Below, piece by piece: positions 33,040 to 34,668 of a DNA stretch of 64,000 nt. The notes under the pieces were generated by a model. It did not search any database and was not told the origin of the DNA. It was given only the letters and a program-made list of their open reading frames with translations. Position 1 is the first letter of the stretch. Every line of letters begins with the position of its first letter. This DNA is from Butyrivibrio sp. CB08 (GTDB lineage Bacteria; Bacillota; Clostridia; Lachnospirales; Lachnospiraceae): assembly GCF_003625485.1 (NCBI RefSeq), contig NZ_RAIR01000003.1, forward strand, positions 124,001-188,000. The letters are read 5' to 3'. The translations under genes and the position numbers were made by a program.

Positions 33040-33801
33040 ATGTACAGAGTACTTATAGCTGAGGATGAGGACATCATCCGCAAGGGAATAGCATACACCA
33101 TGGACTGGGTTTCCATGGGCTGCACCATTATAGGAGAGGCAGCCAATGGCCAGGAGGGAGTTCAGAAGATTGAGGAGCTCCAGCCAGACATCGTTCTTGC
33201 TGACATCATGATGCCAGTTATGGACGGCATCGAGATGATCAGAAGAGGCCAGGAGATAGCAGATTTTAAGGCAATCATCATGACCAGCTATGGTGAATTT
33301 GAATACGCCAAAAAAGCCATCGAGCTTGGAGTTTCTGCCTACCTCATGAAACCTGTCGACGAAGAGGAGCTTAAGGCCAACATCAAAAAAGTCATCGACG
33401 ACATCGAGCGCAGCAATCAGCTTAAGCAGCTTGAAAGCAGGAAAAGAGATGGCGGCGAAGTTGATCCTATCTTTATAAAGAGCGACAAGGAAAACGACTA
33501 CGTCAAGCAGGTCATTGACCGCACCAAAGAACACTACTCAGAGAAGATCAGCATTGAAGGCTTTGCAGAAGAGTTTGGCGTTTCCGCAAGCTACCTGTCC
33601 AGGAAATTCAAGGAGGCTACAGGCCAGAAGTATCTGGATTTCCTCAACAAATACCGCGTCCAGCAGGCGGTTGGACTTCTTGAAACTGGCAAGTACAAAG
33701 TGTATGAAGTATCTGATATGACTGGGTTTAGTGATTATAAGTACTTCAGTACTGTATTTAAGAAATATTCCGGAAGCTCACCTTCGGATTTTGTGAAGTG
33801 A
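33040..33801 (+). CDS. Response regulator with AraC-type DNA-binding domain
   Basis: A 253-residue YesN-like regulator. The receiver domain (1-125) has the acidic cluster EDED, phospho-acceptor D55 in DIVLADIMMPVMDG and the conserved Lys in AYLMKPV. The C-terminal AraC/XylS domain has two helix-turn-helix units (IEGFAEEFGVSASYLSRKFKEATG and VYEVSDMTGFSDYKYFSTVFKKY). It is shorter than many YesN proteins because the middle insert is missing. The likely target is the adjacent Fbp-type ABC operon, whose upstream region holds several palindromes. Confidence 0.93.
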   Translation: MYRVLIAEDEDIIRKGIAYTMDWVSMGCTIIGEAANGQEGVQKIEELQPDIVLADIMMPVMDGIEMIRRGQEIADFKAIIMTSYGEFEYAKKAIELGVSAYLMKPVDEEELKANIKKVIDDIERSNQLKQLESRKRDGGEVDPIFIKSDKENDYVKQVIDRTKEHYSEKISIEGFAEEFGVSASYLSRKFKEATGQKYLDFLNKYRVQQAVGLLETGKYKVYEVSDMTGFSDYKYFSTVFKKYSGSSPSDFVK

Positions 33802-33847
33802 GGATTACGAACCGGAAATTTTGTCTGGGAATGTAGATGTCACAATA

Positions 33848-34012
33848 GTAATCAAGGGGCGGCACAAATAGTGCCGTCCCTTTTTTCTATTGTGCGGGTC
33901 CGGCTCCTTTGTCAATGGACTTTCGCGGCATATCCTCGCAGGCCACGAGGGGTGCTGGCACTTTGCGGATTTCGATGTGGCCTGCTGCGGTATTCCACGG
34001 TTCCGTTGACAA
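33848..34012 (+). repeat. Structured interspersed-type repeat, left copy
   Basis: About 165 bases. It begins GTAATCAAGGGG, includes the terminator hairpin, then a long palindrome whose outer arms are CCTTTGTCAATGGA (33906-33919) and TCCGTTGACAAAGG (34002-34015). An inner 9-bp stem is GCAGGCCAC (33938-33946) with GTGGCCTGC (33977-33985). The segments 33909-33939 and 33987-34012 match the reverse complement of the right copy at 30 of 31 and 25 of 26 positions. No gene is present. A MITE- or REP-like element or a structured RNA are the main options. Confidence 0.75.
33856..33886 (+). terminator. Terminator of the sensory operon, also the edge of the left repeat
   Basis: GGGGCGGCAC pairs with GTGCCGTCCC (one wobble) around AAATA, then six T. 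The stem is shared in sequence with a hairpin of the inverted repeat copy at 34432-34458, so this terminator belongs to the repeated element. Confidence 0.85.
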
Positions 34013-34062
34013 AGGGGGTTCTGCCAACCTAGGAGCGTGGTTCCGCGCATGAAATGTCACTT

Positions 34063-34246
34063 TATACCTTCAGAGTGTGTTTTTGAGTTGTGAAGGTATA
34101 CTTTTGGGAAGATTCTTACTTGGCAAAAAAATAAGTATACCTTCAGAGGAGATTTTTATACTGTGAAGGTATACTTTGGGATGAGGCGGGCATAATATCA
34201 GAAAAAAGTATACCTTCAGAACAGATTTTTTCACTCTGAAGGTATA
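34063..34246 (+). repeat. Three palindromes on an exact 73-bp period
   Basis: Each unit has TATACCTTCA and TGAAGGTATA arms (10-11 bp, units two and three starting GTATACCTTCA) separated by exactly 18 bases. The left arms begin at 34063, 34136 and 34209, a spacing of exactly 73 bp. The 18-base loops are related (T-rich centre) but not identical, and the 35-base intervals share CTTTTGGGA-like starts and A-rich ends. On RNA these would be three hairpins; on DNA, six half-sites. They lie between the two inverted repeat copies. Confidence 0.85.
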
Positions 34247-34335
34247 TTCTTTGAAAACTACTCACTTTGGACGCGGGCGGTGCGCTCGATTCAGTGTTGG
34301 TTTTGATAGACGCTTTCCTTGACGCCCCCCGCCGC

Positions 34336-34466
34336 TTGTCAACGGAAGCGTGGAATACCGCAGCGGACGTGTCCGCGAGGATATGCCGCGAAAGTCCGTT
34401 GACAAGAGATGGAACCAGGAGCCTTACTACAGGGGATGGCACTTTAAGTGCCAGCCCCTTGATTAC
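34336..34466 (-). repeat. Structured interspersed-type repeat, right copy (inverted)
   Basis: About 131 bases, in opposite orientation to the left copy. The outer 12-bp arms are perfect: CTTGTCAACGGA (34335-34346) and TCCGTTGACAAG (34395-34406). The inner stem is GCGGAC/GTCCGC (34363-34368, 34371-34376), different in sequence from the left copy's inner stem but equally self-complementary. A second hairpin, GGGGATGGCACT/AGTGCCAGCCCC (34432-34458, one mismatch), corresponds to the left copy's terminator stem. It ends at GATTAC, matching GTAATC at the left copy's edge. Confidence 0.75.
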
Positions 34467-34668
34467 CATCTGGCAGCAGAGATAGGAGCCAGTAAATCTT
34501 GCTGGTAATGCACTTGGGGCAGAGGTTATTTCTTTTCCCTGCATGGATACTGCGTTTAAACTTGTGTTCATTTTTTTGGATAATTAAACAGAAAATTAGG
34601 TATTTTAGGAAAACGGTTTTCTTTATCATAAAAGTATCCAATGACCCGAAATTGAAAGGAGAGGTAAT

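Follow-up and report, generated by a model that had tools for sequence, protein, structure and literature searches.

The conversion of single-stranded into double-stranded DNA and first expression are poorly known outside a few model plasmids. Masai and Arai reportedly worked on the single-stranded promoter Frpo in 1997, and a structured-RNA survey of 2017 is said to include the ssNA-helix motif, a hairpin in several phyla that might act as single-stranded DNA; integron attC sites also fold strand-specifically. In the accessible portions of the respective papers, the Frpo/ssi sites of F and ColIb-P9 are presented as single-stranded promoters (PMC9849209; PMC11541004; PMC7736820), one Frpo (ssi) site, possibly the core hairpin considered below, lies upstream of the methylase gene of a related plasmid (PMC7736820), and a Bacillus-plasmid RNA is listed (PMC2864571). 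In those same portions of the Frpo literature, supplementary Frpo sequence lists aside, neither this core nor its spread to Gram-positive elements, phages and insertion sequences (IS) is mentioned, and a search of the partly accessible literature with both core halves, supplements aside, together with Rfam 15 scans, yielded no description of it.

The core was met in the window, that is, the whole stretch of 64,000 nucleotides of Butyrivibrio sp. CB08 that was analysed. An earlier note on this DNA had reported two copies of one element, inverted with respect to each other, between an upstream regulator gene and an Fbp-type ABC operon, and a repeat search of the window finds them there: the inverted arms are 33909-33939/34375-34405 (31 nt, 97% identity), 33984-34012/34336-34364 (29 nt, 97% identity), 33845-33860/34454-34469 (16 nt, 94%, the GTAATCAAGGGG edge) and 33951-33963/34446-34458 (13 nt, 92%). 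The upstream gene (33040-33801), judged by eye, resembles a response regulator whose C-terminus is of AraC type, and the pair sits in an intergenic gap of a 373-kb contig, not in a conjugative leading region. Each copy has the core CTTTCGCGGCATATCCTC..stem..T[C/G]CGGTATTCCACG; the inner stems, said to differ between copies and still to pair, are GCAGGCCAC/GTGGCCTGC and GCGGAC/GTCCGC, and both are indeed paired. Inside the pair lie three spacer hairpins TATACCTTCA..TGAAGGTATA, 38 nt each at a spacing of 73 nt, which are absent from the earlier note. A covariance model, R1, built on an alignment, A1, of 66 sequences, none from the window's genome (66 of 72 non-redundant elements, the six with longer inner stems being left out), matches both copies far above chance. 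The features of the locus are the following:

33802..34570 (approximate extent), no strand: stretch without counterpart in the orthologous gaps of eight relatives
33848..33886, strand +: left edge, GTAATCAAGGGG, then the terminator-like hairpin GGGGCGGCAC/GTGCCGTCCC, then a T run
33907..34015, strand + (predicted folding strand -): core hairpin of copy 1, R1 match of 62 bits
33921..33937, strand +: 5′ core motif of copy 1, TTTCGCGGCATATCCTC
33988..33999, strand +: 3′ core motif of copy 1, CGGTATTCCACG
34063..34100, no strand: spacer hairpin 1, TATACCTTCA..TGAAGGTATA
34136..34173, no strand: spacer hairpin 2
34209..34246, no strand: spacer hairpin 3
34333..34407, strand - (predicted folding strand +): core hairpin of copy 2, R1 match of 71 bits
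34349..34360, strand -: 3′ core motif of copy 2, on the + strand CGTGGAATACCG
34377..34393, strand -: 5′ core motif of copy 2, on the + strand GAGGATATGCCGCGAAA
34432..34466, strand -: right edge, matching hairpin GGGGATGGCACTT/AAGTGCCAGCCCC and CCCCTTGATTAC

Further copies, whose lack in related genomes would in the terms of the earlier note have pointed to a local duplication, do occur in the window's own genome, in the genus and beyond. The own genome holds a second inverted pair on contig C4, a lone copy at C19:391697 and a shortened copy at C19:452699; with the copies in Butyrivibrio and other taxa, these rule out a local duplication. The exact 5′ motif TTTCGCGGCATATCCTC occurs in 24 stretches of viral contigs and at least 119 stretches of genome contigs. 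Among the matches listed, the 3′ motif CGGTATTCCACG, with up to two substitutions allowed, lies within 215 nt of the 5′ motif at 151 of 160 anchors, as against 30 of 1430 random places in those loci, and some of the nine anchors without it stand at contig ends or next to masked bases. The 5′ motif, being the search anchor, is invariant by construction; in T[C/G]CGGTATTCCACG, within the substitutions allowed, 13 of 14 positions are kept in 69-72 of 72 non-redundant elements (matches listed). Outside the genus, the core is present in other Lachnospiraceae, Actinobacteria, Proteobacteria, inovirus-like contigs, one microvirus, F and ColIb-P9, and the carriers among the matches listed include Lachnospiraceae, Microbacteriaceae, Arthrobacter, Pseudomonas gessardii, Paraburkholderia domus and Anoxybacillus. 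The group labels used below are hand-assigned, up to L130 according to record titles and in L131-L169 by resemblance of flanks, “other Firmicutes” being the presumed label of the rest group (“other”), and P-values treat elements as independent although they are related. Multi-copy loci among the matches listed have all copies on one strand in 10 of 12 cases, or in 9 of 11 if L159, as it seems, overlaps L081, a locus of Agrococcus casei where four direct core copies, spaced at 1.1-1.3 kb, are interspersed with genes of ArdC-like, ParA-like and other kinds.

In the fold of A1, a stem of four pairs flanks a core in which mismatches (C.A, C.T) are conserved alongside a T.G pair. Over the whole structure, 71 cells are changed on both sides, all of them in the flanking stem, against 17.8 in shuffles, a control that leaves relatedness in, and when the partners are shifted by 1-3 columns, the share of paired cells falls from 94% to no more than 52%. 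Selection for structure, which the earlier note had suggested from the two inner stems, is thus backed by covariation in the flanking stem, relatedness not being removed from the comparison. Mismatches of the outer stem, counted as isolated where two or more Watson-Crick pairs border them on either side, are distributed unevenly in the orientation of the motif: the 114 non-redundant elements have A.C 60 times, G.T 17 times, C.C 15 times and G.G never, with T.C/C.T at 29, G.A/A.G at 16, A.A at 10 and T.T at 1. On the reverse complement, the frequent mismatches turn into G.T, G.G and G.A, the better tolerated kinds. The ratio of A.C to G.T is 10:3 in Butyrivibrio, 18:0 in viral, 7:1 in Proteobacterial and 14:2 in other elements; the asymmetry is absent from Actinobacterial elements (11:11). 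The DNA folding energy is better for the reverse complement in 109 of 114 elements (long form) or 104 of 114 (short form), and in 41 and 36, respectively, of the 44 Actinobacterial elements, the core's own mismatches contributing to this strand difference. Copy 2 of the window has -41.8 on the predicted strand vs -36.4 on the other; the two strands of copy 1 are alike (-48.9 vs -49.2), the stretch folded including the edge hairpin. Taken together, the mismatches and the folding energies point to one folding strand, that of the motif's reverse complement. Because the tolerated kinds of stem mismatch are confined to one strand, a double-stranded cruciform, another candidate of the earlier note, is disfavoured.

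The carriers of the core are mobile elements of several kinds. A 50-nt consensus compared with 72,556 plasmid records at E ≤ 10 matches 4809 of them, the reversed query one; of the matching plasmids 3863 are conjugative, which is a raw count and not an enrichment. The core lies in the leading region, upstream of the DNA methylase, on F (at ~54.0 kb, separate from Frpo1 and Frpo2), on ColIb-P9 (at ~23.7 kb, as a fourth site separate from three Frpo-like sites) and on an IncI plasmid. On F and ColIb-P9 the motif is co-directional with the leading genes, and the template strand, which the accessible portions of two papers equate with the transferred strand (PMC11541004; PMC7736820), is therefore the folding strand. 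The folding-strand 12-mer CGTGGAATACCG also occurs in a Klebsiella CRISPR3 spacer (PMC12195874). On plasmid L213, the nearest genes on the right run against the motif. Among phage contigs the motif runs opposite to the gene for a G2P-type Rep in L034, L035 and L045 and to that for Zot in L044 and L176; it has the same polarity in nine related contigs, which encode a different G2P-type Rep, and on a small RepL plasmid, so that the coding strand folds; in inoviruses, the packaged strand is the coding strand. We infer that the folding strand is the single-stranded one in F, ColIb-P9 and the inovirus-like contigs, one microvirus excepted: L175 has the motif on the coding strand, which breaks a strict polarity rule for all single-stranded DNA elements.

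Among proteins chosen from the neighbourhood of copies, Pfam, PHROGs and NCBIfam identify REP_ORF2-G2P initiators, Zot, relaxase, ArdC, DUF932, N6_N4 methylase, an archaeo-eukaryotic primase domain and transposases of the IS256 and IS6/IS66-like kinds. DDE transposases stand next to copies at no fewer than 18 loci (IS6/IS66-like) and at least six loci (IS256); we know of no single-stranded DNA stage required by IS elements with such transposases. The carriers have no gene cluster in common; clusters of neighbouring ORFs extend over 37 of 135 loci at most (matches listed). The right neighbour is co-directional in 9 of 12 Proteobacterial, 24 of 41 Actinobacterial, 8 of 25 other and 5 of 14 viral cases among the matches listed, a bias that, with crude ORF calls, is significant in no group, and a gene promoter was rejected on this count of neighbour direction. 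In 12 of 14 Proteobacterial elements, the motif shares the direction of the majority coding strand.

A promoter-like pattern is found in Butyrivibrio. On the folding strand, a -10 hexamer matching TATAAT in at least five of six positions lies 16-18 nt from the -35 in 8 of 12 non-redundant Butyrivibrio elements, 0.2 being expected; among the matches listed, the same pattern occurs in 4 of 28 other, 1 of 17 viral, 0 of 44 Actinobacterial and 0 of 13 Proteobacterial elements. A finer list of Lachnospiraceae copies, related ones included, has it in 28 of 48 rows; there the spacer is paired at 12-16 of 16 positions (or 14-15 of 17), figures tilted towards pairing by a register of the arms selected to maximise it, and the -10 itself at only 1-3 of 6. 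The inner arm opposite the -10 is for the most part rich in T, with GTRATCAAGCGG or a variant after it. Judged from the letters, a -35/-10 pair with a mispaired -10 has the anatomy of an Frpo-like promoter that would read into the spacer of the Butyrivibrio elements. The mean -35 match, out of six, is 4.75 in Butyrivibrio, 4.36 in other, 3.94 in viral, 3.15 in Proteobacterial and 1.25 in Actinobacterial elements. The window's own copies have TTGACA and lack a good -10, the best being CACAAT (4/6, 15 nt) and CTTACT (3/6, 18 nt), and their stem beyond the -35 is paired at 7 of 15 and 6 of 18 positions; the -10 pattern is likewise absent from the copies of G019. With such a -10 the window's copies offer no good sign of a promoter role, and they may be a variant or decayed form that has kept the core and TTGACA.

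Within the genus, R1 finds matches in 17 of 61 genomes searched, namely 17 of the 37 from the genus and none of the 24 from other families, and a shallow first look across the phylum finds them in 3 of 299 genomes, the own genome included. Neighbouring matches within 2 kb form 18 pairs, of which 17 are convergent, one tandem and none divergent. The spacers of the Butyrivibrio pairs are arrays of short inverted repeats whose sequence is unlike between elements; those of L187-L203 are mosaics of unlike hairpin arrays (AATACC, TTACGGACT, ACACGC, TAGGATAAGA and TACGG types) at ~70-nt spacing. An ORF of 272 aa (L204:1728-2546, G019) lies between two tandem core hairpins and has by eye a PD-(D/E)xK-like stretch; Pfam and NCBIfam give no match to the protein. 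At the orthologous locus, eight relatives with both flanking genes have a gap of 110-190 nt without the element, as compared with 871 nt here; the window pair is an insertion lacking at these eight loci. No target-site duplication was seen by eye at the empty orthologous loci, whose divergence prevents the borders from being placed. Related genomes have, by eye, pairs with similar flanks (L190/L194, L193/L195), and part of the spread is therefore old. Hairpins of the TATACCTTCAG kind also occur without a core pair, at six places of the own genome that include L212:1047-1310, as a separate repeat family. Two contig starts of the own genome, L207 and L208, have their first ~75 bases in common, and three contig ends, L209, L210 and L211, another ~75 bases; both shared sequences hold AAAAGTAGAC-like words, each joined to TATACCTTCAG hairpins, and probably represent both ends of a single insertion sequence, which has TATACCTTCAG hairpins as its target and breaks the assembly.

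We lean towards reading the core hairpin as a cis-acting single-strand initiation (ssi) site that acts on single-stranded DNA. The folding strand reads 5′-CGTGGAATACCG..stem..GAGGATATGCCGCGAAAG-3′, and its conserved, mismatched core would be bound by a widely conserved host factor, with RNA polymerase and the primosome as candidates; the factor would start an RNA on the single strand, and that RNA would prime the complementary strand and could also express nearby genes. The single-stranded setting, the host factor and the priming are what we infer here, whereas the sequence family with its covariation, strand bias and distribution, the convergent pairing and the -35/-10 pattern in 8 of 12 non-redundant Butyrivibrio elements are observed. 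The core is the common part, so that the common function should be whatever the core binds; its occurrence on elements that share no gene speaks for a host factor, and the folding strand speaks for a single-stranded nucleic acid. RNA polymerase is favoured because of the Butyrivibrio promoters and the frequent TTGAC, and the primosome remains a candidate because of the low Actinobacterial -35 value and the missing -10 outside Butyrivibrio. Several observations count against the ssi reading: the -10 pattern is absent from the window's copies and from the Actinobacterial and Proteobacterial elements, Actinobacterial mismatches are symmetric, the two strands of window copy 1 fold equally well, the microvirus L175 and the right-hand genes of plasmid L213 have the wrong polarity, neighbour direction is significant in no group, copies stand next to DDE transposases, and R1 has no significant match in the phiX174 PAS region, the M13 intergenic region, pUB110 or ColE1. 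The carriers would be mobile elements that pass through single-stranded DNA. In Butyrivibrio, elements that mostly lack genes have a pair of copies opposed across an array of small hairpins, an arrangement that would offer a hairpin whichever strand is single, and many copies add an Frpo-like promoter pattern (-35 TTGAnn, 16 nt, mispaired TATAAT) that would read into the spacer. More tentatively, a single near-invariant hairpin of single-stranded DNA, distinct from Frpo and spread over at least three phyla on conjugative plasmids such as F, inovirus-like phages, a microvirus, a small RepL plasmid and IS, could be where a conserved host initiation factor generally lands; in Butyrivibrio it would have given rise to chromosomal two-strand cassettes flanking hairpin arrays.

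The strand asymmetry of mismatches and energies fits RNA as well as single-stranded DNA. A structured RNA had been named as a candidate in the earlier note; the folding strand would then first be transcribed, and the hairpin, carried on mobile elements, could have a regulating or stabilising role. In line with this, the transposase gene reads the folding strand in IS-associated copies, and RF01691, the Rfam family of the Bacillus-plasmid RNA, gives full-length matches, below its threshold of 31 bits, on the folding strand of window copy 2 (34335-34415, +; 15.3 bits, E 0.33) and of the Anoxybacillus copy (L075:3417-3490, +; 18.9 bits, E 0.041). However, the folding strand is antisense to the next downstream gene on F, ColIb-P9, a Klebsiella plasmid and the IncI plasmid and sense in the inovirus-like contigs; since it is variably sense or antisense and, as deduced above, usually the single-stranded strand, single-stranded DNA is favoured, and an RNA, its fit with the asymmetry granted, seems to us rather unlikely. 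A different question is how the Butyrivibrio pairs spread. The mobile palindromic element of the earlier note, understood as a MITE- or REP-like palindrome moved by a transposase encoded elsewhere with the hairpins as transposase sites, agrees with the occurrence of copies in 17 of the 37 genomes from the genus, with the absence at the eight orthologous loci and with the 16-nt edge repeat (94%), which could serve as a terminal inverted repeat of MITE type and may instead belong to the hairpin system. Dispersal and absence from orthologous loci thus speak for it, but the target duplication was not seen by eye, the like-flanked pairs in related genomes make the spread partly old, and the same core is found both where transposases are unrelated and where there are none, F, phages and the RepL plasmid being among these elements; we regard it as unlikely, and it is compatible with a role of the core in single-stranded DNA, as it concerns the spread of the pair.

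The -35/-10 pairs could also be ordinary duplex promoters that point outwards, since TTGAnn-N16-TATAAT reads outwards in duplex DNA, the hairpin having another role such as that of an insulator. A duplex promoter, however, needs no mispaired arm of the kind found opposite TATAAT, mostly T-rich, next to a paired spacer and with GTRATCAAGCGG or a variant on its inner side, and it would leave the core in other phyla unexplained, which makes it very unlikely. As for a site for a single-strand recombinase, in the manner of attC, or for another protein of mobile elements, strand-specific folding and the multi-copy loci of Actinobacteria fit it, but carriers with no gene cluster in common make it very improbable.

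If the core hairpin is indeed an ssi site, it would be a direct test object, being on F, for single-strand conversion and first expression outside the few model plasmids. It could mark elements with a single-stranded stage, and the rule of the folding strand, if it holds, predicts which strand enters.

Several described systems resemble the core hairpin. It may be the same motif as the ssNA-helix, reportedly also a hairpin of several phyla, and this would lower its novelty. The PriA primosome assembly sites (PAS) of phiX174 and ColE1 are alike in acting on single-stranded DNA via a universal host factor, and the complementary-strand origins of inoviruses (M13) and the sso of rolling-circle plasmids in that the core is on the coding strand of inovirus-like contigs and of the RepL plasmid. 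As far as sequence likeness goes, R1 has no significant match to the phiX174 F-G intercistronic region (PAS), ColE1, the M13 intergenic region or pUB110, and these are ruled out as the same element. In the accessible portion of its description, the STAXI motif is likewise structured, near SSB and antirestriction genes and discussed by its authors for a role in single-stranded DNA; compared by description and Rfam scans, it differs by its repeated pseudoknots, and its authors favour RNA (PMC2864571). Rfam 15 gives no family at threshold in the window gap and eight loci scanned whole. The nearest family, the Bacillus-plasmid RNA RF01691, shares GUCAA../..UUGAC arms and a GAGGAU stretch with the core hairpin and may be a distant relative; it has no match to the core copy on F, and the near-invariant part of the core is absent from its consensus as shown. 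Frpo1 and Frpo2 differ from the core by sequence, as blastn with them does not hit the core sites of F and ColIb-P9, and they are ruled out as the same element; nor does R1 match Frpo significantly (best 8 bits, E 5.6, at L174:13177). Both Frpo1 and Frpo2 of F (L174 near 13533 and 18923, strand -) hold TCCGGTATTCACCA, whose first 10 bases are those of the 3′ core motif, opposite to the folding strand, which may be chance. The Frpo/ssi sites of F and ColIb-P9 are hairpins like the core on transferred single-stranded DNA of the leading region, and 8 of the 12 Butyrivibrio elements likewise rebuild a -35/-10 pair in the stem with the -10 mispaired.
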